The notes under the pieces are model-generated. The model ran no database searches. It saw nothing but the letters and a program-made list of their open reading frames with translations, and was not told the origin of the DNA. Source: Niameybacter massiliensis (GTDB lineage Bacteria; Bacillota; Clostridia; Lachnospirales; Cellulosilyticaceae). From it: DNA of 64,000 nt. Below, piece after piece: positions 9,358 through 48,894 of this stretch; position 1 is the stretch's first letter; each line of letters opens with the position of its first letter. A program made the position numbers and the translations under genes. The DNA lies in NCBI RefSeq assembly GCF_001282685.1, contig NZ_LN875035.1, forward strand, positions 2,218,001 through 2,282,000. Direction: 5' to 3'.

Positions 9358-11308
9358 TTGTACAACATCTAAAAACACATATTGTAAATGGATTCATACA
9401 ATATCTTGTTTCTTGAACTTTAAGGTGACATCCTATAAAACTTTGGGATTGTGATGTATCAATAATCAGTTGCCAACCTTGTTCTTGTTTTGGTAAATCA
9501 AATACAAGAGGCTCAATATAATTATTCATCATAATATACAGTTTTTCTGAACCTACTTCTATTTGCTCAGCTAAGCTACAAGAATAATACGACCAATCTG
9601 GTTCGTTATAATTGACCCCATGAAAAGTAATTTTTAGTTGTTCTTTATTTATTGCTTTAAAACAATTACTTTCTTTCCTAAATTTAATCATTGATTTTAC
9701 AAATTCTAGAATTTCTTTATTTTTCTCCGTTAAGCTCCAATCTACCCATGTGACTTCATTATCTTGACAAAAAGCATTATTATTACCTTTTTGCGATCTT
9801 CCCAACTCATCTCCCATCAAAAGCATAGGTATTCCTTGTGAGAGTAACAATAAAGCAAAATAATTTTTTATACGTTTTTTTCTTATCGAGATAATTTTCT
9901 CATTCTGTGTTTCGCCCTCTTCTCCACAATTGTAGCTATAGTTATTATTATTGCCATCTCTGTTTCCTTCACCGTTTAACCTATTTTGTTTATATTGATA
10001 AGAAACAAGATCCCACATTGTAAAGCCATCATGTGCAGTAATAAATTGTATCGTATGCGTCTTATTTTTCCTAGTATCTTGAAATTGTATTTCACTCCCT
10101 GTTAAACACTTTGCAACTGCATTAGTCATACCTTGGTCGCCTCTTACAAATCGACGCATAGTATCTCTATAACAATCACTCCATTCTGCTATAGGGTATG
10201 GCATACGCCCTACATCATAGGCACCTTTTGCATCCCAACATTCAGCAATAAGCTTTACATGTGATAAGATAGGATCATTGGCAATATCCTCCATAATCGA
10301 ACCAGCATACCAATTACCAACTTCATTTTGCATTAAAATAGATGCCAGATCAAATCTAAAGCCATCAATCCCCATACACACAACCCAATAGCGCAGACTA
10401 TCTAGAATAAGTTGCTTTGTCACAATATGCTTATTATTGAGTGTATTACCTGTACCAGCATCATTACGATGATAGCTCCCATTCCATTTATAATATACTT
10501 CTGGAGCTAATGCCTTAAAATTAAAGACTTTCCCGTCTTGTCCCCCTTCACCTGTATGGTTATATACTACATCTAAAATAACTTCCATACCATTTTGATG
10601 AATAGCCTCTACAAATTTCCTAAATTCTTTAACTTCTCCAAGGGCCCCTCTATCCATTGCATAGACTTCTTGAAGGGCAAAAAAGGAAATACTATTATAC
10701 CCCCATTCATCTTGTAAAGTTTCTTGAGTAATAGGATGTTTATTAGAAAGTGTATGCTTATTCCATTTAAAAATTGGCATTAATTCTAAACTAGTAACAC
10801 CCAACTCTTTTAAATAGGGTAATTTTTTTAATAAGCCTTCAAAAGTTCCTCTTTCCCTATTTTCAATTTGACTTGTAGGACTTTTTGTAAAAGCACCTAC
10901 ATGCATCTCATAAATGATTGTTTCTTCCCATGGAATAAAAGGACGTTCTCCTTTATATACTTTATCATTGACAACGATATTCTTATAATGATTACTCCCT
11001 TTAGGAAAAGCTGACAAACTTCTAGCATAGGGATCAATAAGAGGTATACTCATCTCTCCTTTTTCTGTAACTGTCTGCCAGGTGTAAGCAAATCCCTCTT
11101 CTACACCTTTGATACTTATACAAAAAACATCCCCCATGCAAGAAGTCTCACGATCAAGAATTACTTCTACTAGTGGTACTTCTTCGTAAACAAATCTATA
11201 AATTTTAAGGATCATACAACGTGCAGTTGTTGCGTAGATTCCAAAATTGCACCGATCTCTAATTAGCTTACACCCCAACAAGGGAAAACCCTTCTCTATT
11301 TCAAACAT
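9353..11308 (-). CDS. glgX: Glycogen-debranching enzyme / isoamylase-type GH13
   Basis: 651 residues from the ATG at 11308, which has the strong ribosome site AGGGAGGGAGC. An in-frame TTG at 11404 would add 32 residues but has no such site and falls on the tyrS promoter. An N-terminal CBM48-like domain is followed by the GH13 barrel with DVVYNHT, GFRFDLAS (nucleophile Asp), LIAECWD (acid/base Glu) and TAHDGF (Asp), all intact. It hydrolyses alpha-1,6 branches of glycogen or limit dextrins. No other glycogen genes are adjacent. A type I pullulanase is the alternative; the length and lack of extra domains favour GlgX. Confidence 0.88.
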   Translation of the reverse strand: MFEIEKGFPLLGCKLIRDRCNFGIYATTARCMILKIYRFVYEEVPLVEVILDRETSCMGDVFCISIKGVEEGFAYTWQTVTEKGEMSIPLIDPYARSLSAFPKGSNHYKNIVVNDKVYKGERPFIPWEETIIYEMHVGAFTKSPTSQIENRERGTFEGLLKKLPYLKELGVTSLELMPIFKWNKHTLSNKHPITQETLQDEWGYNSISFFALQEVYAMDRGALGEVKEFRKFVEAIHQNGMEVILDVVYNHTGEGGQDGKVFNFKALAPEVYYKWNGSYHRNDAGTGNTLNNKHIVTKQLILDSLRYWVVCMGIDGFRFDLASILMQNEVGNWYAGSIMEDIANDPILSHVKLIAECWDAKGAYDVGRMPYPIAEWSDCYRDTMRRFVRGDQGMTNAVAKCLTGSEIQFQDTRKNKTHTIQFITAHDGFTMWDLVSYQYKQNRLNGEGNRDGNNNNYSYNCGEEGETQNEKIISIRKKRIKNYFALLLLSQGIPMLLMGDELGRSQKGNNNAFCQDNEVTWVDWSLTEKNKEILEFVKSMIKFRKESNCFKAINKEQLKITFHGVNYNEPDWSYYSCSLAEQIEVGSEKLYIMMNNYIEPLVFDLPKQEQGWQLIIDTSQSQSFIGCHLKVQETRYCMNPFTICVFRCCTK

Positions 11309-11398
11309 AAGCTCCCTCCCTACTTGTGTGTTTAGAAAATATAAATCATTATATAGTCTACCATATTCTGGTAATTTTATACAGATAAAATTCAAGTC

Positions 11399-11426
11399 TT
11401 GCAAATTTCTTTCGCTATGTTATAAT
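11399..11426 (+). promoter_or_regulatory. Promoter of the tyrS leader
   Basis: TTGCAA (11399-11404), a 16-base spacer and TATAAT (11421-11426). The expected start near 11433 puts the whole T-box leader downstream. Confidence 0.75.
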
Positions 11427-11459
11427 AATAACCAATTATATAGTCTAAAAATGTTGATA

Positions 11460-11664
11460 AAGATTGAGTAGTAATAGACTTGCCTTTTCAGAGAGCATAC
11501 GGTTGGTGCAAGTATGCAGGAATCTATTATGAATTACACCTTTTGAATTGCACATATGTGCCGGTTACATACCGTTATCATGTTAGAGGCAATGTATTTT
11601 GCGAACAAAGGTGGTACCACGGGTGATCTCGTCCTTTTTATAAGGCGAGGCACCCTTTTTTTAT
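11460..11664 (+). ncRNA. T-box riboswitch (tyrosine) in the tyrS leader
   Basis: Stem I has the AGAGAG motif (11490-11495) and an apical hairpin GCATAC-loop-GTATGC with GGTTGGTGC in the loop. The specifier region GAATTACACC holds the tyrosine codon TAC at 11535-11537. The T-box sequence AAGGTGGTACCACGG (about 11608-11622) overlaps the 5' arm of a terminator (GGGTG...CTCGTCCTT with AAGGCGAGGCACCC, then a T-run, 11620-11662). Uncharged tRNA-Tyr would stabilise the antiterminator and turn on tyrS. Confidence 0.93.
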
Positions 11665-11710
11665 TAACTTTTTTAATTACTCTAGACAACTTATTAGGAG
11701 GATTTTAAGA

Positions 11711-12937
11711 ATGAACGTATTTGATACCTTAATGGAACGTGGATTTATCCAACAAACAACACATGAAAAAGAAATTAGAGAACTGTTAGAAAAAGAAAAG
11801 GTAACTTTCTATATTGGTTTTGACCCTACTGCTGATAGTTTACACGTAGGTCATTTCGTAACAGTTATGGCTATGGCTCACATGCAACAAGCCGGACATC
11901 GTCCAATCGCCCTTTTAGGTGGCGGTACAGGTATGGTTGGTGACCCAACTGGTAAGACAGATATGCGTAAAATGCTTACTCCTGAAATTATTAAACATAA
12001 CGTAGCTTGTTTTAAAAAACAACTTTCTCGTTTTATTTCTTTTGATAATGAACAAGCAATGATTGTTGACAATGGAGATTGGCTTCTTAATTTAAACTAT
12101 ATCGAATTCCTTCGCGAAGTTGGTGTACATTTCTCTGTAAACCGTATGCTTACAGCTGAATGTTTCAAACAACGTCTTGAAAAAGGTCTTTCTTTCTTAG
12201 AATTTAACTACATGCTTATGCAATCTTATGACTTCCTAGAGCTTTACAGAAAATATAACTGTAAATTAGAACTTGGCGGTAACGACCAATGGTCAAATAT
12301 CCTTGGTGGTGTTGAACTTGTAAGACGTCTTCATGGCGATACTGCATTTGGTATGACTTTCTCTCTTCTCACAAACAGTGAAGGTAAGAAAATGGGTAAA
12401 ACAGAAAATGGTGCTGTATGGCTAGATGCTGAAAAAACATCTCCTTACGACTTCTACCAGTATTGGAGAAACGTAGCTGATGCTGACGTTAGAAAATGTC
12501 TATGCCTTCTTACCTTCCTTCCAATGGATGAAATCGATGCACTTTGCAGCGTAGAAGGTGCCGAAATTAATAAAGCAAAAGCTAAACTTGCTTTTGAAAT
12601 TACAAAAATTGTTCATGGTGAAGAAGAGGCTGCAAAAGCACAAGAAGCTGCTCAAGCTGCTTTTGCTGGTAAAGGAGCAAGTGGTTCCCTACCAACTACA
12701 AATTTAAATGCTGACCTTTTTGCTGAAGGTCTAGATATCATTAGCCTTCTTGTAGACCATACAGGAATTGTTGCAACACGTTCTGAAGCACGTCGTCTCC
12801 TTACACAAAACGGTATTAAAATTGAAGGAAAACCTGTTGAAGCCATTGACTTCAAAGTAACTACTGATTTATTCAACGATGGTGCTTTAATGATTCAAAA
12901 AGGTAAAAAAGTATTCCATCAAGTAAATCTTGTTTAA
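11711..12937 (+). CDS. tyrS: Tyrosyl-tRNA synthetase
   Basis: 408 residues. The class I HIGH-type motif is HVGH, in [17 protein letters not shown]; the KMSKS-type motif is KMGKT; the tyrosine-binding YMLMQSYDF and GGNDQWSN blocks are present. The C-terminal about 65 residues form the S4 RNA-binding domain ([20 protein letters not shown]). It charges tRNA-Tyr. The ribosome site AGGAGG precedes the ATG. Single-gene unit controlled by the tyrosine T-box and closed by its own terminator. Confidence 0.97.
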
Positions 12938-37933: not shown

Positions 37934-38150
37934 ATAAAAAAACCTCGTTCCCAAATAGGGACGAGGTTGCTCGCGGTACCACCCTAGTTATACCTAAAAA
38001 TAGGTATCACTCACAACTTCTAACGCAGTCACCCGTACATCCCTACTCAGGTTCAAGATGTATGCTCAAAGGCTGCTTCAACAAACAGGTATTAGGAAAC
38101 TCTCAGCAATGTTTCCCTCTCTGAAAACCCTTATCTATTTACTACTCCTT
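37934..38150 (-). ncRNA. T-box riboswitch (alanine) upstream of vanY-like gene and alaS
   Basis: Minus strand: base of stem I AGTAGT (38141-38146), CAGAGAGG with the apical hairpin GGAAAC-loop-GTTTCC, specifier region GAAGCAGCC with the alanine codon GCA at 38074-38076 (the next triplet, GCC, is also alanine), T-box sequence CTAGGGTGGTACCGCGA (37971-37987), and terminator AACCTCGT/ACGAGGTT (37941-37968) followed by seven T. It would switch on both downstream genes when tRNA-Ala is uncharged. Confidence 0.92.
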
Positions 38151-38217
38151 ATCATCGCATGTTACTTATTCTATTTATATACCTAGTATAGCTTTTAATA
38201 TGCTTATTATGATAATG

Positions 38218-39688: not shown

Positions 39689-41443
39689 TTAAATTCTATC
39701 TTTCTTTGCATAGTGTGTATGCAATAACTCATGTGCTTTATGACTCATTGGATGTCCAAAATAATCTTCATACATTTGAAGTACTGCTTGATTTTCATGT
39801 GATTTACGTACTGGTTTACCTGCATCTTCTGCAAAGAGTGCATCACGGCGTTTTTGAACGACTTCGATATTGCCACCATGATAGGGTTGACCACCACCGC
39901 CTACGCAACCACCTGGGCATGCCATAACTTCGATTGCATGGAAGTTATTTGGATTTCCTGCCTTAATTTCTTCCATTAACTTTCTGGCATTGCCAAGTCC
40001 ATGTGCAATACCAATATTAAGTTCAAGATCCCCTACTTTAACTGTTGCCTTTCTCACTCCATCAAAACCTCTTAATGATTCAAATTCCACCTTTTCAAGG
40101 TTTTCTCCTGTAATTTTTTCATAAGCAGTACGTACTGCTGCTTCAATTACACCACCTGTTGTTCCAAAGATAACAGCTGCACCAGTAGATTCTCCTAATG
40201 GATTATCAAAATCTTCTTCTGGTAAACTATTAAAATCAATGTTTGCCTGTTTAATAAGTGCAGCAAGCTCACGTGTTGAAAGTGCAATATCTACATCCTT
40301 TTCAAATTCTGGCCTGTCTGCTTCATACTTTTTAGCAAGACATGGCATAATAGATACAACCGTCATTTTTTCACGTGGAACTTCAATTTTTTCTGCAAAA
40401 TAAGATTTTGCAATAGCACCAAATATTTGTTGTGGTGATTTTGCTGTTGAAGGATAATCTAGCATATCACCAAATTGTGTTTCATAGAAGTTTACCCATG
40501 CTGGACAACAACTTGTAAGAAGTGGTAACTTCACAGATTCGTCTCCACTCATTACTTTTGTAATACGGTCAATAAGTTCTGAACCTTCTTCCATAATGGT
40601 GACATCAGCAGCAAAGTCTGTATCAAATACATAATTAAACCCTAATCTTCTAAGGGCTGCAGCCATTTTACCTGTCACCAAAGTACCTGGCTCCATACCA
40701 AACGCTTCACCAAGTGCTGCACGTACTGCTGGTGCTACTTGAACAATCACTGTTTTATTTGGATTTGCAAGCTGTGCTAAAACTTCATTAATTTGCTCAT
40801 TTTCTACTAATGCACCTGTTGGACAAACAGCTACACATTGACCACATTGTGTACAAACGGTTTCTTCAAGTGGTGCACCAAATGCAGTTCCCACGAATGA
40901 AGGAAATCCACGATGTACACCAGAAAGTGCTCCTACAGTTTGAACTTTAGAGCACATCGTTTCACATCTACGGCACATGATACATTTATCCATATCACGG
41001 ATAATGGATACACCTGCTTGCTTTGGATAAGTAGATTGTGCATAATTGACATCAAATCTAGCTTCTCTTATTCCAAACTTAACAGCCATATCTTGAAGCC
41101 CACAATGCCCTGCTTTTTCACAACTTAAGCAATCTTTTGGATGATCTGAAAGTAAAAGTTCAAGTACCATACGACGTGATTGCATAACACGTGGTGTACT
41201 TGTTCTTACAACCATTCCATTTGTAACAGGTGTGGCACAAGCTGGTGCTAAATTTTTTCGTCCATCTACTTCCACTACACATACACGACAAGAAGCTGTT
41301 TTATTTTCCATATCTGTACCATGAAGGTTTAGGTAGCAAAGTGTAGGAATATCTATCCCTACTTGTCTGGCTGCATCTAAGATTGTTGCGCCTTGGTTTA
41401 CAACGGTTTCTTTTCCATCTATCGTAATTTTAAGTTCTGACAT
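39689..41443 (-). CDS. hydA: [FeFe]-hydrogenase catalytic subunit
   Basis: 584 residues from the ATG at 41443; a TTG two codons earlier is also possible. Domains: plant-type 2Fe-2S (1-80), His-ligated 4Fe-4S (HPKDCLSCEKAGHC), two 4Fe-4S clusters (CIMCRRCETMC, CTQCGQCVAVCP), then the H-cluster domain with TSCCPAW, MPCLAKKYEA and MACPGGCVGGGGQP, all intact. Group A, CpI-like layout. With the HydB and HydC subunits it probably forms an NADH/ferredoxin-linked (electron-bifurcating or NADH-dependent) enzyme; which of these cannot be decided from sequence. Confidence 0.95.
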   Translation of the reverse strand: MSELKITIDGKETVVNQGATILDAARQVGIDIPTLCYLNLHGTDMENKTASCRVCVVEVDGRKNLAPACATPVTNGMVVRTSTPRVMQSRRMVLELLLSDHPKDCLSCEKAGHCGLQDMAVKFGIREARFDVNYAQSTYPKQAGVSIIRDMDKCIMCRRCETMCSKVQTVGALSGVHRGFPSFVGTAFGAPLEETVCTQCGQCVAVCPTGALVENEQINEVLAQLANPNKTVIVQVAPAVRAALGEAFGMEPGTLVTGKMAAALRRLGFNYVFDTDFAADVTIMEEGSELIDRITKVMSGDESVKLPLLTSCCPAWVNFYETQFGDMLDYPSTAKSPQQIFGAIAKSYFAEKIEVPREKMTVVSIMPCLAKKYEADRPEFEKDVDIALSTRELAALIKQANIDFNSLPEEDFDNPLGESTGAAVIFGTTGGVIEAAVRTAYEKITGENLEKVEFESLRGFDGVRKATVKVGDLELNIGIAHGLGNARKLMEEIKAGNPNNFHAIEVMACPGGCVGGGGQPYHGGNIEVVQKRRDALFAEDAGKPVRKSHENQAVLQMYEDYFGHPMSHKAHELLHTHYAKKDRI

Positions 41444-41456
41444 CTTCAATATCCCC

Positions 41457-43244
41457 CTACTCTTTTACAATAGCGCCAAAACGACATTTAGTCATACATG
41501 CACCACATTTAATACACTTAGCATGATCAATTTCATGTTTTTGTTTTGGACTACCTGAAATAGCGCTTACTGGACAAATTCTAGAACATGCAGTACATCC
41601 AATACATTTATCTGTAATGTTGTATTCGAGTAAGGCACTGCATTTACCTGCTGGACATTTATGGTCACGAACATGAGCAAGATACTCATCTTCAAACGCT
41701 TCTAATGTAGATAATACTGGATTAGGTGCTGTTTGACCTAATCCACAAAGTGCTGTATCTTTAATTGCTGCACTAAGTTCTTTTAAGGTATCTAAATCTT
41801 CCATAGTACCTTTGCCCTCTACAATCTTTGTAAGGATTTCGCAAAGACGTTTTGTTCCCACACGGCAAGGTGTGCATTTACCACAAGATTCTTCTTCGGT
41901 AAATTCAAGATAGAATTTTGCTACAGCAGGCATACAGTCTGTTTCATCCATAACAATCATACCACCTGAACCCATCATAGAACCTTTTGCAATTAAGTTA
42001 TCAAAATCAATAGGTGTATCAAGATCTTTTTCTGTTAAGCATCCACCAGATGGACCACCAGTTTGAACGGCTTTAAATTTCTTACCATCTTTAATACCAC
42101 CACCAATATCATAGATTACCTCTCTTAATGTAATCCCCATTGGTACTTCTATAAGACCAACATTATTGATTTTACCTGCAAGAGCAAATACTTTTGTTCC
42201 TTTTGATTTTTCTGTACCAATCTTACTGAACCAATCTGCACCTTTTAAAAAGATAACTGGAACGTTCGCAAAGGTTTCAACGTTATTTACGTTTGTTGGT
42301 TTATTCCAATAACCACTTTCAGCTGGAAATGGAGGTTTTGTTGTAGGTTCACCACGCATACCTTCCATTGAGTGAATAAGTGCTGTCTCTTCACCACATA
42401 CAAAAGCACCCGCTCCAAACTTAATTTCAATATCAAAACTAAACGCTGTTCCTAAGATATTTTCACCTAATAATCCATAATTACGTGCCTGATCAATAGC
42501 AATCTCAAGACGTTTAACAGCTAAAGGATACTCTGCACGAATATATACAAGCCCTTTATTTGCACCAATTGCATAACCACAAATAGCCATCGCTTCTACA
42601 ATTGAGTTTGGATCCCCTTCAAGAATTGAACGATCCATAAAGGCACCTGGATCCCCTTCGTCTGCATTACATACAACGTATTTTTGATCACTTTGATTTT
42701 TGTAAGCAAACTCCCACTTTAGACCTGTAGGGAAACCACCACCCCCACGTCCACGAAGTCCTGCTTTTTTCACTTCATCAATCACTTCTTGTTGTGTCAT
42801 TGTAAGCACTGTACCAAGTGCTGCATAACCATCTCTCGCTATGTATTCATCAATATTTTCTGGATCAATAAATCCACAGTTACGAAGTGCTACACGCATT
42901 TGTTTTTTATAGAATTCCATATGTTTTGAGTCTGATACACAATCTGTTGTCGCTGGATCTACATAAAGTAGTCTTTCAACTTTTCGCCCTTTAACTACAT
43001 GCTCTGCAACAATTTCTTTTGCATCTTCTGGTTTTACTTGAACATAAAACGTATTGTCTGGAAGAATTTTTACGATTGGCCCTTTCTCACAGAAACCGAA
43101 ACATCCTGTTGTAAGAACTTGAACAGTATCGCTCATCCCAGCTTCCTTGATATGTAACTTAAGATTTTCTACGATTTCATGAGATCTAGATGAAATACAC
43201 CCTGTACCTCCACAAACTAAAATATGCATTGTATATTGAGACAT
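41457..43244 (-). CDS. hydB: Hydrogenase NuoF-like flavoprotein subunit
   Basis: 595 residues: N-terminal thioredoxin-like 2Fe-2S domain (CGGTGCISS and CFGFCEKGP), NADH/FMN domain with GLRGRGGGGFPTGLKW and NADEGDPGAFMDR, 4Fe-4S motif SCGKCTPCRVG, and a C-terminal double ferredoxin (CIGCTACSRICP, CIKCGACMTKC). This matches HydB of trimeric hydrogenases. It takes or gives electrons at NAD(H) and passes them to HydA. 13 bases before hydA in the same operon. Confidence 0.95.
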   Translation of the reverse strand: MSQYTMHILVCGGTGCISSRSHEIVENLKLHIKEAGMSDTVQVLTTGCFGFCEKGPIVKILPDNTFYVQVKPEDAKEIVAEHVVKGRKVERLLYVDPATTDCVSDSKHMEFYKKQMRVALRNCGFIDPENIDEYIARDGYAALGTVLTMTQQEVIDEVKKAGLRGRGGGGFPTGLKWEFAYKNQSDQKYVVCNADEGDPGAFMDRSILEGDPNSIVEAMAICGYAIGANKGLVYIRAEYPLAVKRLEIAIDQARNYGLLGENILGTAFSFDIEIKFGAGAFVCGEETALIHSMEGMRGEPTTKPPFPAESGYWNKPTNVNNVETFANVPVIFLKGADWFSKIGTEKSKGTKVFALAGKINNVGLIEVPMGITLREVIYDIGGGIKDGKKFKAVQTGGPSGGCLTEKDLDTPIDFDNLIAKGSMMGSGGMIVMDETDCMPAVAKFYLEFTEEESCGKCTPCRVGTKRLCEILTKIVEGKGTMEDLDTLKELSAAIKDTALCGLGQTAPNPVLSTLEAFEDEYLAHVRDHKCPAGKCSALLEYNITDKCIGCTACSRICPVSAISGSPKQKHEIDHAKCIKCGACMTKCRFGAIVKE

Positions 43245-43262: not shown

Positions 43263-43661
43263 TTACTCATCAAGGGATTTATGGATAGTTGGTATAATGC
43301 CATCTACCATTTCGCCACCAAGAATATGTTTTTCTAATATTTCCTTAGCTTTTGCTTTGTCAACGTTTCCATACACAACAGGTTCTTTACCTGGTAATGT
43401 GAGTTCAATAGTAGGTTCTGCATAACAGTATCCCATACAGCCACTTTGTGTAATGACAACATTATCTACTTTTTCATCTCTTACAAGCTCTGCAAAGTAA
43501 TTCATCACTTCTCTTGCCCCAGAAGCTATCCCACAGGTTGCCATTGCTACACGAACTACTACCATATTATCTACATTTTCACCTTTTACACGAAGATCTA
43601 CTTTATTTTTCACATTATCTCTTAATGTTTTAAGTTGATCGAGTGACATGATTTTCGTCAT
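43263..43661 (-). CDS. Thioredoxin-like 2Fe-2S ferredoxin of the hydrogenase operon
   Basis: 132 residues. A 2Fe-2S thioredoxin-like fold with four probable cysteine ligands: ATCGIASGAR, and GCMGYC followed by AEPTIEL. It resembles the N-terminal domain of HydB as a free protein. Such a gene sits between hydC and hydB in many Clostridia hydrogenase operons and probably relays electrons or is a fourth subunit. Confidence 0.88.
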   Translation of the reverse strand: MTKIMSLDQLKTLRDNVKNKVDLRVKGENVDNMVVVRVAMATCGIASGAREVMNYFAELVRDEKVDNVVITQSGCMGYCYAEPTIELTLPGKEPVVYGNVDKAKAKEILEKHILGGEMVDGIIPTIHKSLDE

Positions 43662-43690: not shown

Positions 43691-44185
43691 CTATTCTTGG
43701 TACTCTGCAATAATTTCTTTAACTTGCTCAGCTGTATTAATACGTCCGTATACTTTATCCCCAATCATTACAACAGGAGCAAGCCCACACGCTCCAACAC
43801 ATCTTAATGCATCTAATGAAAACTTACCATCAGATGTTGTTTGACCTACTTCAATGCCTAACTCATTTTTGAAAGCATCTAAAACCCTATCTGCTCCCCT
43901 TACATAACAAGCTGTTCCTAAACATACTGAAATAGGATATTTCCCTTTAGGTTCCATTGTAAAAAATGAATAGAAACTTACAACACCATAAACTTGAGCA
44001 GTTGGTATATTAAGTTTTTGACCTACGTATTCTTGTACTTCTTTTGGTAAATATCCAAAAATAGCTTGCGCTCTATGAAGCACTGAAATTAATGCACCTC
44101 GTTTTTCTGGTAATGCATCGATAAAAGCTCCTAATTCTGCATACATTTCTGTTGCAAGTGGATTGTTACATTTCTCACATGACAT
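43691..44185 (-). CDS. hydC: Hydrogenase NuoE-like 2Fe-2S subunit
   Basis: 164 residues. NuoE/HydC fold: helical N-terminus with LISVLHRAQAIFGYLPKEV, then 2Fe-2S ligands in VCLGTACYVRGAD and RCVGACGLAPVV. It transfers electrons within the HydABC complex. First gene of the operon; ribosome site AGGAGG; promoter and a Rex-like operator upstream. Confidence 0.93.
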   Translation of the reverse strand: MSCEKCNNPLATEMYAELGAFIDALPEKRGALISVLHRAQAIFGYLPKEVQEYVGQKLNIPTAQVYGVVSFYSFFTMEPKGKYPISVCLGTACYVRGADRVLDAFKNELGIEVGQTTSDGKFSLDALRCVGACGLAPVVMIGDKVYGRINTAEQVKEIIAEYQE

Positions 44186-44245
44186 CGCTCTTCCTCCTTA
44201 CGCTTTTGTTACATTTAGCAATAGATGTTTTATTATTTCAAGGTT

Positions 44246-44263
44246 TCGTTAAAAACTTCACAA
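44246..44263 (-). promoter_or_regulatory. Candidate Rex operator in the hyd leader
   Basis: Minus strand TTGTGAA-GTTT-TTAACGA. The Rex consensus is TTGTTAA-N4-TTAACAA; 12 of 14 half-site bases match with the correct 4-base spacer. It lies about 25-40 bases past the expected transcription start, where a bound repressor would block elongation. Rex senses NADH/NAD+, which fits an NADH-linked hydrogenase. No rex gene is in the window. Confidence 0.6.
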
Positions 44264-44293
44264 GTAGTCTGAAATTTTTTAATTATATTTATG

Positions 44294-44322
44294 AAAATAC
44301 CACAATTTTTTAGTATTGTCAA
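44294..44322 (-). promoter_or_regulatory. SigA-type promoter of the hyd operon
   Basis: Minus strand TTGACA (44317-44322), 17-base spacer, TATTTT (44294-44299). It gives the hydrogenase operon a start separate from the sensory operon that ends at 44368. Confidence 0.8.
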
Positions 44323-44367
44323 CTTATTATGATTTTTATCAACTATTTATTTAATTTTATACAATTT

Positions 44368-45072
44368 TTATACAATTTTTAACCATTCAAACACACTTTT
44401 TTTATCTATTTTTTCCACTTCTAAAAAACTTTCTCCTTCACACAATTGTTCTAAGTAATGCGCATCCGAACTCTTCACACACCTCATACCTGGATATATT
44501 CCTTTGTAAAGTTCGTCTTTAGCATTCTTTGAAACTTCAAAAGCATCAAAATATAAATCATCTGGAATAGCACCCAAATTTGATAAGATACTATAAGCAT
44601 TACGATCTATGTGTGCAGGATAAATACATCCACTCAATCCTTTGACTAATGGCACCAGCTCATAGACGGATAGCTGTGTTGCTGTTAAAAGCATACGTTC
44701 TATCTCACCTATGACTTCATCTTCTGTATTCATAATCCACTGATTTCCAAAAATAGAAGCTCTATTTTTGATTTTAGGCATACAGGCTTGTATTTGTTTC
44801 TCAGCCTCATAAGCATTTTCAAGATTTGGAAATAGAGCAATGAGATGAAATTCCTCCATACACTCTATTTCCATTCCGGGTATTACTAAAATATCTTTTT
44901 CTTTTCCTAACGCCATAATAGGTGCACAGTTACAGCAAGTATTGTGATCTGTAATAGCAATAATCTTTTTCTCCAAAAGCTCACAAAGATTAATAATATT
45001 ATTAGGAGTCATCAGCTCATCTCCACAAGGCGATGCTGCTGTATGAATATGAAAGTCATAACTGACAATCAT
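44368..45072 (-). CDS. PHP-domain phosphoesterase
   Basis: 234 residues. Metal-binding PHP motifs: FHIHTAAS (residues 6-13), AITDHNTC, PGMEIE, and C-terminal SSDAHY. PHP proteins hydrolyse phosphoesters (histidinol-phosphatase and nucleotide-phosphatase types). Its start overlaps the DRTGG gene stop (ATGA). Position at the end of a sensory-hydrogenase operon suggests that it removes a phosphoryl signal or a nucleotide in that pathway; this is inference. Confidence 0.88.
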   Translation of the reverse strand: MIVSYDFHIHTAASPCGDELMTPNNIINLCELLEKKIIAITDHNTCCNCAPIMALGKEKDILVIPGMEIECMEEFHLIALFPNLENAYEAEKQIQACMPKIKNRASIFGNQWIMNTEDEVIGEIERMLLTATQLSVYELVPLVKGLSGCIYPAHIDRNAYSILSNLGAIPDDLYFDAFEVSKNAKDELYKGIYPGMRCVKSSDAHYLEQLCEGESFLEVEKIDKKSVFEWLKIV

Positions 45073-45413
45073 CCAACCCCTCCTAACACACCATCTTGAC
45101 CTAACCTATAAGCTAATTGAAAGCTTGTAAGCGGTGTATTTAGTACTGGGATACCATTTTCTTTTGCTTTTTCTAACATTTCTTCCGTTGGCATGCTCTT
45201 TTCTGTTAGAATAATGGCCGATAGACCAATAAGACTTGCTACAGCTACTGTATTAATATGTCCTTGTATGGTTAGCCAAATCATTTCTTCCTTGGCATGA
45301 GCCATCACAAAGCTAAGTAGGTCACCTACATAACCTCCTTTGATGTTTTGCTCTATACCTTCATCACATAATACATTTAAATTGTACTGATTTGCCAGCT
45401 CTTTGACCGTCAT
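45069..45413 (-). CDS. DRTGG-domain protein (second copy)
   Basis: 114 residues from the ATG at 45413, after AGGGGGGAT; a start at 45464 would overlap the hydrogenase-like gene. The whole protein is one DRTGG domain: VKELANQYNLNVLC, then GGYVGDLLSFVMAHAKE and AIILTEKSMPTEEMLEKAKE. DRTGG domains occur in phosphotransacetylases and HPr kinase-like proteins and probably sense a ligand. It is paralogous to the protein at 47160-47510 (shared CDLMSDVLAFAKEK / GDLLSFVMAHAKEE block). Confidence 0.87.
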   Translation of the reverse strand: MTVKELANQYNLNVLCDEGIEQNIKGGYVGDLLSFVMAHAKEEMIWLTIQGHINTVAVASLIGLSAIILTEKSMPTEEMLEKAKENGIPVLNTPLTSFQLAYRLGQDGVLGGVG

Positions 45414-45423
45414 CAAATCCCCC

Positions 45424-46737
45424 CTAGTCTTTTGTTGTTGGCAATATTTTTTGTGTGAGCTCAAACATGGCTTCAGATAACTCTTTAATACGCTTTCTCA
45501 ACATAAAGATGCAATCCTCCACATGTGCATGCCCCTTGACTACGTCCTCAGCAAAACATCTACAAGTAGGTGCACCACATGAACCACAGTCTATTTGCGG
45601 CAACTTACTATATAGCTGTTCTATTTCTTCCATCATTTCCAAAGCTGTTCCAATATCTTCATCTAGCGAAAAAACAGGTTTAGGTACAATAGATACATTA
45701 TATTTATATGGAAGAGCTTCTAATAAATGGTTGGCTTTAGTAACCTTTTCTCTCTTTGCTTCTTGTTCTTCATGTTCTATTAATTTTTTGAGTGTATGAC
45801 GGCTCACAAAAGGATTTTCTATAGTAAGTGCACCACCTAAGCACCCACCTGTACAAGCTAATGCTTCTATATAATGAATTTTTGATAATGTACCATCCTC
45901 TACTTTTTCCAAAATATCAATAACACGTTCAATACCATCTACTGCAATATGGTTATCGATACCTATATTACTAATACCTCCATTCCTAGTTGCCCAACTC
46001 ATCCCCCCCGGGGTTGGTTTACGCTTAATAGGGTGTGGGTGATTTTTAATTTCATGAATTACTTTTAGGTAAATCTCTTGCATTGAAAATGCCCCATCTA
46101 CATAAGACTTTTCAAGTCCCTTTGGCTTATGGATATCCGTAGCTTTAGCTGGACATGGTGATATAAAGAAAACACCTACCTCTTCTTGTTTAATACCATG
46201 GCTCATATAGGCTGACTTAACATATCTAGCTGCAAGTTCCATAGGAGACATAATAGGCAAAATATGATCTATAAGAGCTGGAAAACGTCGCTGGATTAAG
46301 CGTACGATGACAGGGCAAGCCGATGAAATAACAGGAAATACCTTAACTTCTTTCATATACTGATTTGTGTACTCTGCAATATATTCTGCAGCTTCACTGA
46401 CTTCGAAAACATCAGTAAATCCTATGGCATACAAGCTTCCAAGAATCTCCTCTACACTTTCACCTTTTGCAAATTGTGCATAAAAACTAGGTGCAGGCAA
46501 TGCAACACGATAAGAATAACTATAAATCATATTAAAATTATCCATTACAGCACGCTTAGCACCATTTCTACAAACTGCAATACAGTTTCCACAGTCAATG
46601 CATCTCTCAGTAATAATCTTTGCTTTAGAATCTCTTACTCGAATAGCTTCTGTCGGACATCTTTTAATACAATCCGTACATCCTATACACTTCTCGCTCT
46701 CTAGTGTTACAGAATGGCTGTACATAATAGGCTTCAC
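45424..46737 (-). CDS. Sensory-type [FeFe]-hydrogenase homologue (group D-like)
   Basis: 437 residues: two N-terminal 4Fe-4S clusters (C17/20/23/27 and C46/49/52/56), an H-cluster domain, and a C-terminal 4Fe-4S motif (C384, C387, C392, C409). H-cluster ligands are kept: C141 (ISSACPVI), C195 (SPCPAKATD), C295 and C299 (LACTGGCLGG). The proton-relay Cys of TSCCP is Ala140, and the loop-3 GGGGQP is GGALTI. These changes are typical of putative H2-sensing hydrogenases, not bulk catalysts. It lies within a signalling operon beside hydABC, so it probably reports H2 or redox state. Confidence 0.88.
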   Translation of the reverse strand: MKPIMYSHSVTLESEKCIGCTDCIKRCPTEAIRVRDSKAKIITERCIDCGNCIAVCRNGAKRAVMDNFNMIYSYSYRVALPAPSFYAQFAKGESVEEILGSLYAIGFTDVFEVSEAAEYIAEYTNQYMKEVKVFPVISSACPVIVRLIQRRFPALIDHILPIMSPMELAARYVKSAYMSHGIKQEEVGVFFISPCPAKATDIHKPKGLEKSYVDGAFSMQEIYLKVIHEIKNHPHPIKRKPTPGGMSWATRNGGISNIGIDNHIAVDGIERVIDILEKVEDGTLSKIHYIEALACTGGCLGGALTIENPFVSRHTLKKLIEHEEQEAKREKVTKANHLLEALPYKYNVSIVPKPVFSLDEDIGTALEMMEEIEQLYSKLPQIDCGSCGAPTCRCFAEDVVKGHAHVEDCIFMLRKRIKELSEAMFELTQKILPTTKD

Positions 46738-46744
46738 CTACTTC

Positions 46745-47158
46745 CTATTTTAAAAATACGGTTAGCTGTACTTTTGTTCCTTCTCCTACAATCGATGTAA
46801 TTTTAAGTTCATCACTATACTTTTTCATATTGGGTAGCCCCATACCTGCTCCAAACCCTAACTCTCGAATTTCATGTGTCGCAGTTGAGTACCCTTCCTG
46901 CATTGCTAAATCTATATCTGGAATACCTGGTCCCTTATCTTCTAATATAACTTCTATTTTTTCCGGTAAAACATCTACCTGTATAGTACCACCATGAGCA
47001 TGAATAACCATGTTCATTTCTGCTTCATACATAGCAACCGCAATTTTTCTAATTTTTGTACTATCTATGCCTAACTTTTTAAGAATATTCTTGACTTTCC
47101 CAGAAGCTTCACCTGCTAGCAAAAAATCATCTCCGTCAACTTTATAGAATAGATTCAT
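46745..47158 (-). CDS. RsbT/RsbW-like HATPase serine-kinase-type protein
   Basis: 137 residues from the ATG at 47158, one base after the preceding stop. GHKL ATPase boxes: N box AMYEAEMNMVIHAHGG (43-57), G1 EDKGPGIPDIDLAM (73-86), G2 GFGAGMGLPNMKK (101-113), and GEGTKVQL. The spacing and GIPDIDLAMQEGYST closely match RsbT, the switch kinase of stressosomes. No histidine-kinase dimer domain is present. It probably phosphorylates or binds a partner in response to the neighbouring sensory hydrogenase; no STAS or sigma gene is in the window. Confidence 0.87.
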   Translation of the reverse strand: MNLFYKVDGDDFLLAGEASGKVKNILKKLGIDSTKIRKIAVAMYEAEMNMVIHAHGGTIQVDVLPEKIEVILEDKGPGIPDIDLAMQEGYSTATHEIRELGFGAGMGLPNMKKYSDELKITSIVGEGTKVQLTVFLK

Positions 47159-47159
47159 G

Positions 47160-47510
47160 CTATACTTCGCCTCCACCACCTAGTCCTTTTTCATAAAGCT
47201 TCCCACAAGCCGTATAAAGGGGATAATGAGTAGATAAAAGCACAATATTTTTTTCTTTTGCAAGTTCTATCATATCTTCTGTTGGAGATTTACCTCTTAC
47301 AAATACAATAGCTTTAATATCTAACATTTCAGCTGTACGAATGACTTGTGGATTAATAAGCCCAGTTAAAAGTAGTACTTTTTCTTTGGCAAAAGCTAGA
47401 ACATCACTCATTAAATCACAACCGCAAGCTGCATATACATTTGAATTTAATTGTTCTTCCCCTACACATACCTTTGCTTCTAGTATTCCCTTAACTTCTT
47501 TAATCTCCAT
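47160..47510 (-). CDS. DRTGG-domain protein (first copy)
   Basis: 116 residues, a single DRTGG domain: VYAACGCDLMSDVLAFAKEK, then AIVFVRGKSPTEDMIELAKEKNI and a glycine-rich end GLGGGGEV. Ribosome site GGGAGG. It is in the same operon as, and paralogous to, the copy at 45069-45413. Two DRTGG proteins flanking the kinase and the hydrogenase homologue suggest ligand-sensing or phosphate-relay parts of one complex. Confidence 0.87.
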   Translation of the reverse strand: MEIKEVKGILEAKVCVGEEQLNSNVYAACGCDLMSDVLAFAKEKVLLLTGLINPQVIRTAEMLDIKAIVFVRGKSPTEDMIELAKEKNIVLLSTHYPLYTACGKLYEKGLGGGGEV

Positions 47511-47538
47511 TGAGGATCCTCCCTATAAATACATATAA

Positions 47539-48657
47539 TTATTGGTAATAGGCTGTTCCTGGTAATTGTACTTGGAATAGGCCTTCTTCTAAATTCATTT
47601 CAAAGTTTTTCACATGCTGTCCACAAAATGCCTCTTGTACCTTTCCTAATCCAATTCCTACATGCAATGCTTCTTTAGGCTGCATGAGTAAAAGTCTAGA
47701 GTAGAGCCAAGGATTTGTAGGTACTTTCATATTTTCATCAAAAGCATATTGATACTGCCTAGGATTTACAACACGAATTTGTTCTTCTCCTATTTCTACT
47801 CTTGTATATAAATAGACATTCCAATAATCTCTATGAATAATCGCATTTGCTAATACTTCACGTAATGCTTCAAAAGGATAATGAACTGGTAATAAAGGGC
47901 GTATTTTATCTTCAAAAAGCTTAAGCATATCTGATATATTCCCTGTAATGCCTATTGTCCCCTCCTTGCAACTTACTTCAAGCAACGCCTGTGGAATAAA
48001 GATTTGTGGCATCTTTCCAAATAAAAGTAAGCCTCCATATGTAGGATATAGTTGTTTTTCATCTTCTAAACTACTTATAATCCCTAATGCTTTAAGCATA
48101 TGAACCTGTTGTATTGAGTGATCTTCAAAATTTTTAAGTGCATAACCAATCTGGCTAAAATCTAAATCTTCTAATGTAGCTTGACGGCATGGTACCTGTT
48201 CAAAACTAAGTATACCTTGTGCTTGAAACATTTGTGCAATCTCATGTCTCGTTGCAATATCGGTTGTTGAGCCTCTTCTTAAATAAAAAGCACCATTTTG
48301 CCTCATTTGATGTGGTGCCTGCCTACTCTTATAAATGGTTAGAATACCTACTACCTTTTGCTTATACTCTAGTGTCTCAAACTTTACCGGTACAGGTGGT
48401 ACACTTCTATAAGTAATAACTTGTTGAATACGTTCCTCTATATCTTTAGGTAAATCCTGAAGACCAACAATACGTTTCGTCTTATCTTCTATTCCGAATA
48501 TAATGTAACCTCTTCCACCTTCTGTATTCGCCATTGCAATAACGTCTTTTACGAATTCCTTTTTATCTGAATCTACTTCTAAGGATAGCTTATATTTAAA
48601 ATCCAATTTAAAGCCTTCTTCTTCCTTCAACAAGTTTGCGAGTTTAGTCTTATTCAT
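47539..48657 (-). CDS. AlbA_2 (Schlafen-like) DNA-binding domain ATPase
   Basis: 372 residues from the ATG at 48657, after TTTAGGTGA. The N-terminal AlbA_2 domain (about 10-130) contains EGFKLDFKYKL, GRGYIIFGIED and GAFYLRRGSTT; a C-terminal HATPase_c_4 part has EALREVLANAIIHRDYW (N box-like) and HVGIGLGKVQEAF. Such proteins are annotated as transcriptional regulators or ATP-dependent helicase-like. It is 28 bases upstream of the sensory operon and is a candidate regulator for it; an independent role is equally possible. Confidence 0.83.
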   Translation of the reverse strand: MNKTKLANLLKEEEGFKLDFKYKLSLEVDSDKKEFVKDVIAMANTEGGRGYIIFGIEDKTKRIVGLQDLPKDIEERIQQVITYRSVPPVPVKFETLEYKQKVVGILTIYKSRQAPHQMRQNGAFYLRRGSTTDIATRHEIAQMFQAQGILSFEQVPCRQATLEDLDFSQIGYALKNFEDHSIQQVHMLKALGIISSLEDEKQLYPTYGGLLLFGKMPQIFIPQALLEVSCKEGTIGITGNISDMLKLFEDKIRPLLPVHYPFEALREVLANAIIHRDYWNVYLYTRVEIGEEQIRVVNPRQYQYAFDENMKVPTNPWLYSRLLLMQPKEALHVGIGLGKVQEAFCGQHVKNFEMNLEEGLFQVQLPGTAYYQ

Positions 48658-48894
48658 ACTATTCACCTAAAATTCAATCTTATTTGTCTTCATTTTAGCA
48701 TATCCCATTCACAAAAAACAGATAATTCAGCCATATAATATTCAATTTTATAAATTATATTATATATATTACAGAAAATTTAATCTTTTATATTTATTAT
48801 CATAATCACTTCCTTTCTTTTACCCATTACAAGTTATGCTTTTATCTACTCCTTCATATACATAGTAATAAGATTTTTTACGTGAGGTACTTAT

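Follow-up and report, generated by a model that had tools for sequence, protein, structure and literature searches.

To date, [FeFe]-hydrogenases of the M2e type, termed HydS, have been described upstream of bifurcating hydrogenases and often together with a kinase, and a regulatory role has been proposed for them (PMC3561251, PMC3608648, PMC8163306). Another report mentions in general terms that the bifurcating hydrogenases of C. thermocellum are preceded by phosphatases, kinases and PAS sensors (PMC3492117), and signal transfer from group D hydrogenases is called an open question in PMC8163306. Here, we describe a HydS locus of Niameybacter massiliensis, located in a stretch of 64,000 nucleotides (nt) of contig NZ_LN875035.1 (positions 2,218,001 to 2,282,000 of the forward strand), hereafter the window. 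A HydS gene adjoining both a kinase gene and hydABC has already been published. Judged from gene order, the conserved core of the locus is DR1-R1-HydS-DR2-PHP, in which two DRTGG proteins (DR1 and DR2) and a PHP phosphoesterase accompany HydS and a presumed kinase of the GHKL type (R1), and it appears to be one copy of a switch common to many anaerobic bacteria.

Several described systems share parts of this arrangement. The group D hydrogenase TamHydS belongs to the same HydS class, is encoded upstream of a bifurcating hydrogenase and is adjoined by a histidine-kinase-like protein; unlike the present module, it is described in the available text without DRTGG or PHP genes, fusions or a CBS variant. 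An AraC family regulator is named there as a gene flanking TamHydS (PMC8163306). In the T. wiegelii locus (L049), the genes on either side of HydS encode R1 and a DRTGG protein, and the one after HydS matches DRTGG and not AraC; judged from this locus, the gene reported as AraC next to TamHydS probably encodes a DRTGG protein. The group C HydS-PAS systems (T. maritima HydS, R. albus HydS and HfsB), as far as the consulted parts of their descriptions go, are likewise proposed sensors encoded by hydrogenase genes and have the same kind of C-terminal FeS cluster, but they contain a PAS domain, whereas a Pfam scan found none in the HydS of the window. In the [NiFe] H2 sensor HoxBC with HoxJ/HoxA, an H2-binding enzyme feeds a kinase, as proposed here; that system is built on another hydrogenase and uses a true histidine kinase with a response regulator. 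The SpoIIAB/RsbW serine kinases share with R1 the fold (seen on a fused relative, L163) and the ATP site, yet R1 stays below their curated cut-offs and has a DRTGG partner. The DRTGG fold likewise occurs next to kinase or CBS domains in the HPr kinase N domain and in CBS-DRTGG pyrophosphatase, whereas the DRTGG proteins here are stand-alone, 110–130 amino acids (aa) long, and paired with a GHKL protein. Finally, a sensory hydrogenase and kinase adjoin rnf in Vallitalea guaymasensis, for which H2 control of Rnf has been proposed; the hydrogenase is termed group C1, and the accessible text does not mention DRTGG, a second GHKL protein (R2, see below) or recurrence across lineages (PMC6163223). 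A literature search that left most subscription journals outside its scope returned nothing on DRTGG parts or a sensor swap at HydS loci, on DRTGG with HydABC, or on DRTGG with a CBS domain and anti-sigma factors; for DRTGG together with hydrogenase it returned a single paper, which contains each term once.

All genes of the locus lie on the minus strand. DR1 (47160..47510) matches PF07085 with 25.9 bits (cut-off 25.2) and is followed by R1 (46745..47179), a SpoIIAB/RsbW-like GHKL ATPase that matches HATPase_c_2 with its N, G1 and G2 boxes intact. HydS (45424..46737), a group D [FeFe]-hydrogenase homologue and presumed H2/redox sensor, contains the Fe_hyd_lg_C domain and a C-terminal FeS motif. 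DR2 (45069..45413; an earlier TTG start is possible at 45464) matches PF07085 with 29.6 bits against the same cut-off, and the PHP phosphoesterase (44368..45072) was identified by Pfam and retains the expected metal ligands. A sixth gene, encoding an AlbA_2/Schlafen-type protein, lies 28 nt upstream of DR1. The initial annotation, which had assigned these families to six minus-strand genes, is confirmed on this point by the open reading frames (ORFs) and by Pfam and NCBIfam scans. Its statement that no gap exceeds 28 nt also holds, but the chosen starts give two overlaps rather than one: DR1 and R1 overlap by 20 nt when R1 begins at a GTG, and DR2 and PHP overlap by 4 nt, whereas R1 and HydS are 7 nt apart and HydS and DR2 10 nt with an ATG start of DR2.

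For comparison, a scan of species genomes yielded at least 559 HydS relatives, the best 80 of which were used as named loci, and 100 further loci were hand-picked from other genomes. After removal of 21 near copies (90% HydS identity), 160 of the 181 loci, window included, were counted, and a locus was scorable if its flank was long enough for the neighbor in question. The longest ORFs were taken as genes, and in GC-rich contigs the apparent absence of a gene may in some cases reflect an error of gene calling. The names Rex, RseC, CheW, rnf and histidine kinase/response regulator (HK/RR) were given by eye, with one example of each confirmed by Pfam except rnfG, rnfE and rnfA; maf, radC and mre were named by eye only.

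The core is widely conserved. Its strict same-strand order was found in 100 of 142 non-redundant loci, with HydS identities among conserved loci reaching down to 37%. R1 is the immediate upstream neighbor of HydS in 140 of 147 scorable loci, and two of the seven misses are R1-HydS fusions, so the pairing of a group D hydrogenase with a GHKL protein stands as first annotated. A DRTGG gene precedes R1 in 116/144 scorable loci and directly follows HydS in 134/158, and PHP is next or second downstream in 125/151. Either hydB or hydA is nearby in 92 of 112 well-flanked loci, and R2 likewise in 92 of 112. The median gaps in strict cores (−4, 17, −4 and −4 nt, then 101 nt after PHP) suggest translational coupling. 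The gene order is thus conserved across Clostridia and beyond, and the proposed operon does not fall for want of conservation. Among 398 genomes of one phylum, R1 is present in 155 of the 157 with a strong HydS (E <1e-80) and in 13 of the 241 others (Fisher 6e-92, shared descent not corrected for). In four of these 13 genomes, the HydS locus is split, short or truncated by a contig end (G001, G091, G236, G278), four have a CBS-type R1 (G090, G117, G150, G321), four have HydS-free R1 loci (L314–L317), and G009 completes the set. HydS is split or shortened in L269 and L274, where the rest of the cassette is kept.

By its motifs, HydS of the window has a full H-cluster site of the type seen in group D. 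The H-cluster cysteines C141, C195, C295 and C299 show a conservation of 1.00 in 155 aligned sequences. The protein contains three H-cluster motifs, two N-terminal [4Fe-4S] motifs (C17–C56) and a C-terminal Cx2Cx4Cx16C motif (C384/C387/C392/C409), and it is 48–49% identical to the HydS proteins of L049 (Thermoanaerobacter) and L064 (Acetivibrio). When its motifs were compared by eye with those of the window's HydA, HydS had Ala in place of the proton-transfer Cys and Ser and Leu in place of the two active-site Met residues (TSCCP to SSACP, MPC to SPC and EVMAC to EALAC). TamHydS is reported to show the same replacements, and the rule given for group D is loss of the proton-transfer Cys with M353 changed to Ser/Thr (PMC8163306). 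Fe_hyd_lg_C proteins number six in this genome (C11 and C9); one of them, in a frame of 700 aa at C11:1282532, is closely preceded by a GHKL match.

By sequence, R1 is an intact SpoIIAB-like GHKL ATPase. Its N, G1 and G2 boxes are kept at ≥0.98 in 123 sequences, and the N-box Glu at 0.99. The nearest solved or characterized relatives in a sequence search are SpoIIAB and RsbW, and among NCBIfam models SpoIIAB scores best (63.3 bits, cut-off 135); its score and that of RsbW (33.2 bits, cut-off 145) are both below cut-off. No STAS partner was seen beside R1 among the clusters displayed for 81 loci, where no STAS- or sigma-directed scan was made. The DRTGG proteins match the CBS-DRTGG region of 3l2b/3l31 (E 2.5e-4). 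S35 and T49 of DR1 and the corresponding Ser and Thr of DR2 are invariant in the alignment, and in a single comparison the one other DRTGG protein of the genome keeps the Thr and replaces the Ser; S35 of DR1 is a candidate phosphosite. The PHP metal ligands H8, H10, D42, H43, E68, H154, D203 and H205 are kept at 0.96–1.00 in 118 sequences, and the protein matches the endonuclease Q, 5′-3′ exoribonuclease and 3′,5′-nucleoside bisphosphate phosphatase families, all below the subfamily cut-offs.

Gene fusions connect these proteins further. DRTGG is fused to R1 in nine non-redundant loci (confirmed by Pfam on L163), R1 to HydS in L122 (601 aa) and L123 (626 aa), and PHP to R2 in L131 (424 aa). 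The first two types argue for contact among DR1, R1 and HydS: the R1-HydS fusion supports HydS-R1 contact, and the DRTGG-R1 fusion, along with adjacency, supports an action of R1 on DRTGG, both as predicted interactions. The AlphaFold2 model of the L163 fusion has a mean predicted local distance difference test (pLDDT) value of 91.5, a predicted template modeling score of 0.73 and a disordered linker, and Foldseek matched its parts to SpoIIAB (1til) and the DRTGG protein AF1212 (2ioj).

The sensor itself seems to be exchangeable. Eight loci in six genomes (G090, G117, G150, G304, G321, G387) contain HydS-free DRTGG-R1 cassettes in which CBS is fused to R1, the CBS domain being recognized by Pfam in L264, L265, L270, L277 and L319 and by full-length match to L277 in L266, L283 and L320. 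Most of them retain the second DRTGG gene, PHP and R2, and in L319 and L320 the order is DRTGG, CBS-R1, a hydD-like gene and rnfCDGEAB. Since CBS-R1 cassettes occur without HydS, HydS and CBS look like alternative inputs to one kinase. The CBS-R1 fusion also occurs together with HydS in L126, L157 and L321 (Pfam; a single CBS match in L157) and in L127 (full-length match), and G304 and G387 carry the CBS cassette plus a separate R1-HydS copy. In an R1 tree (136 domains, 138 columns), the HydS-free CBS-type kinases do not form one group, requiring five changes, of which three are forced by supported branches; this reading uses CBS labels only and leaves aside those of L167, L173 and L190 (DRTGG-R1 fusions). 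DRTGG-R1 with neither HydS nor CBS was found in L314–L317, and in L314 and L315 it is followed by an RseC-like gene, Rex and a cytochrome-like gene.

The module usually lies beside hydABC and sometimes beside rnf, both of which encode ferredoxin:NAD enzymes. In the window, the order is hydC-hydD-hydB-hydA. hydC (43691..44185) is NuoE-like (Pfam 7.1e-53); the next gene (43263..43661) encodes a thioredoxin-fold [2Fe-2S] protein, called hydD-like from weak Pfam and NCBIfam matches and operon position; hydB (41457..43244) is NuoF-like (Pfam, NCBIfam); and hydA (39689..41449) encodes an NADH-dependent [FeFe]-hydrogenase of group A6 (NF040763, 865.8 bits, cut-off 765). The commonest arrangement among the counted loci (32/160) is same-strand hydC-R2-hydD-hydB-hydA, the hyd genes being elsewhere divergent or reordered; they are divergently transcribed yet linked in L079, L094, L108, L111, L116, L117 and L119. 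The module or part of it precedes rnfCDGEAB without hydABC in six of the 160 loci (L041, L051, L124, L126, L127, L146), as well as in L236 and L237. The six rnf-type genomes that were tested have hydA6 elsewhere, above the cut-off in five and as a partial match below it in G027.

The window operon lacks R2. The R2 gene of this genome lies outside the window, at −1552 to −971 in window numbering, and is immediately followed by rnfCDGEAB, in a locus (L245, −6579 to −971) that continues, as read by eye, with a small membrane protein, maf, radC and an mreB-like gene; Pfam confirmed rnfC, rnfD and the GHKL domain of R2 there. R2 was found in 18 of 19 relatives searched, and rnfC follows it in all 18; the nineteenth genome, G418, is 73% complete. 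In this lineage and its close relatives, the portion with HydS is thus found beside hyd and R2 beside rnf. A constant R2-rnf association in this order was considered and rejected, given that in G246, which belongs to the order as well, R2 lies within the hyd cluster (L117). The R2-rnf position may, from its distribution, be the ancestral site. In several HydS-free cassette loci, R2 precedes a block resembling that of L245. R2 adjoins hydD in 75 of 92 loci, and this position, together with the PHP-R2 fusion, suggests a path to the enzyme. Taken with the loci in which the module precedes rnf, the placement of R2 in this genome makes the role first assigned to the operon, tuning hydABC, too narrow.

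Nor does the operon run straight into hydCBA, as the initial annotation had it: apart from the hydD-like gene in the cargo, an intergenic gap of 182 nt (44186–44367) separates PHP from hydC. It contains a promoter-like site on the minus strand (44294..44322; TTGACA-17-TATTTT with a TG before the −10, i.e., an extended −10), similar to one in most aligned family relatives, and, about 30 nt beyond, a Rex-operator-like site (44246..44263, minus strand) with two mismatches to TTGTTAAN4TTAACAA. Among 12 loci of the same family, the Rex site is perfect in five, has one mismatch in two and three mismatches in L230. Rex sites with ≤2 mismatches were found in 19 of 116 hydC upstream regions, compared with 0.34% of single-base shuffles made from module-upstream regions. 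Over the window as a whole, the motif shows no enrichment (16 sites, 18.5 expected), and the case rests on the relatives. The genome encodes a Rex. Rex as a universal output was rejected, the Rex gene being present in 19 of 112 well-flanked loci, and a hydC Rex site with ≤2 mismatches is not commoner where a Rex gene is near (1/18 vs 18/98). In C. bescii, whose HydS is Athe_1292 (PMC3561251), a Rex site is predicted 39 bp from the ATG of the Hyd unit (from Athe_1295), and a figure legend reports electrophoretic mobility shift support for Rex at hydrogenase promoters (PMC6391272). hydABC may thus have its own Rex-linked promoter.

Collectively, the explanation that we favor, at somewhat less than even probability, is that the core, joined elsewhere by R2, forms a modular redox switch. 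HydS, whose sensing is presumed from its class, would contact R1 directly and signal to it the presence of H2 or the redox state of ferredoxin/H2; R1 would then change its ATP-dependent action, by phosphorylating or holding, on one or more DRTGG partners. The activity of the neighboring ferredoxin:NAD enzyme would be set by the state of DRTGG, which PHP would reset and which would be relayed with the help of R2. The switch would more likely act on the enzyme itself than at the promoter level, given that most hydC genes of this family have promoter-like and Rex-like sites of their own and that the widely conserved core includes no DNA-binding gene; that HydS acts on the enzymes themselves is a guess. 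Rather doubtful is the broader proposition that this would be an undescribed class of redox signaling, with a SpoIIAB-type kinase, DRTGG in place of STAS, inputs that are swapped between species (an H2-binding hydrogenase, a CBS nucleotide sensor or the two together), PHP and R2 as reset and adaptor, and post-translational gating of HydABC and Rnf.

Several observations weigh against the switch as formulated. Among the 112 well-flanked loci, 20 lack hydB and hydA, and some have neither hyd nor rnf. HydS copies without R1 in the locus occur in L176, L180, L201, L207 and L210, and three spirochaete-labeled contigs (L066, L077, L087) carry R1-HydS alone, without DRTGG or PHP. A histidine kinase/OmpR-type pair or CheW adjoins R1-HydS in a few lineages (confirmed by Pfam in L103 and L069), suggesting other outputs. 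The AlphaFold2 model of the DRTGG-R1 fusion shows no confident interface, and the C-terminal cluster of TamHydS is described as unresponsive to H2 (PMC13104023). As to the promoter, the remaining four of the 12 same-family loci have PHP-hydC gaps of 13–90 nt and no Rex site. In C. bescii, transcripts of the hyd unit shifted by only log2 −0.13 to −0.38 on deletion of rex, i.e., without derepression (PMC6391272); Rex may thus not be the main control, and this result slightly lowers our confidence in the best explanation.

These neighborhoods have features of their own. In L176, L180, L207 and L210, the HydS copies are accompanied by DRTGG and hyd genes, whereas PHP is absent from these four loci. 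The R1-HydS pair is preceded by CheW-like genes in L069, L166 and L178, and L103 encodes (10401–12314), directly after the HK/RR pair and R1-HydS, a hydrogenase homologue fused to a chemoreceptor domain (Fe_hyd_lg_C, FeS, MCPsignal). From this fusion and the CheW neighbors, H2 taxis is possible. The earlier view that the operon has no two-component output is correct for the window, whose operon contains no PAS domain, no histidine kinase with a phospho-His domain and no response regulator, but it does not extend to the loci with an adjoining HK/OmpR-type pair or CheW.

Two alternatives to the modular switch are each improbable. The first is partner switching on transcription, in which R1 would act as an anti-sigma-type protein with DRTGG antagonists, and H2 would free a sigma factor or, in this order, the AlbA_2 protein as a DNA-binding output. 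The kinship of R1 with SpoIIAB and RsbW fits this scheme, as does the AlbA_2 gene (47539..48666, minus strand), which is co-oriented with the core; AlbA_2 proteins are often termed transcriptional regulators. This protein has an SLFN_AlbA_2 match (Pfam E 1.8e-22) and a GHKL-like C-terminal half; a later ATG would put the gene end at 48657 instead of 48666. Its AlphaFold2 model is weak (mean pLDDT 69.8), the best Foldseek match being 3lmm (E 2e-13). It adjoins the module in 11 of 12 same-family loci (broken in L227) and in four of eight other loci of the same order, but among the 81 loci compared first it was present only in L037, L039 and the window itself, so it is a lineage-specific extra rather than the operon member it was first taken for. 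AlbA_2 as a conserved output was rejected, as it is confined to this order among the loci seen. No conserved extra regulator was found nearby among the clusters displayed for the first 81 loci, and among the 45 largest clusters displayed (spurious overlapping frames set aside), families outside the core are each present in at most 13 of these loci, which counts against this scheme. Elsewhere in the window, two T-box leaders, at 11445–11639 (+) and 37954–38164 (−), exceed the Rfam gathering score.

The second alternative is a nucleotide switch without protein phosphorylation, in which DRTGG would bind a nucleotide, PHP would destroy it, and the R1 and R2 ATPases would respond. The likeness of DRTGG to the CBS-DRTGG region of 3l2b/3l31, the CBS domains fused to R1, and the matches of PHP to RNase and nucleoside bisphosphate phosphatase families are consistent with it. 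Against it, R1 keeps its N-box Glu almost without exception, as in a kinase, and the ligands of 3l2b/3l31 are reported to sit on CBS. Less probable again is that HydS is a slow working hydrogenase or an electron valve for HydABC/Rnf, regulated or assembled by the small proteins: every cluster ligand is present, and TamHydS has low but real hydrogenase activity (PMC6984386), but the proton-transfer Cys and both active-site Met residues are replaced, and the cassette exists without HydS. Comparably improbable is that the hydABC association is an operon neighborhood without a functional tie, the module serving a general redox response, in places with Rex; the module does adjoin rnf, Rex, CheW and HK/RR genes as well, and its parts are split between sites in this genome, but the linkage survives divergent hyd transcription in the seven loci listed above.

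The initial interpretation is thus supported in its gene order, GHKL partner and, through the fusions, predicted contacts, but not in the scope of its target or the membership of AlbA_2. The phosphoryl relay through DRTGG with removal by PHP, as first proposed, is hypothetical; DRTGG might instead bind a ligand, and PHP might act on a nucleotide. With regard to signal transfer from group D hydrogenases, the fusions point to the likely immediate partners of HydS, and the CBS variant provides a built-in control, with the same kinase and partners and another sensor. For judging the output of the switch, enzyme activity matters alongside the level of the hyd transcript. If the proposal is true, one switch would match the H2 or nucleotide state to the enzymes that set the ferredoxin/NADH balance in anaerobes, which would be relevant to syntrophy and to the yields of H2, ethanol and acetate.

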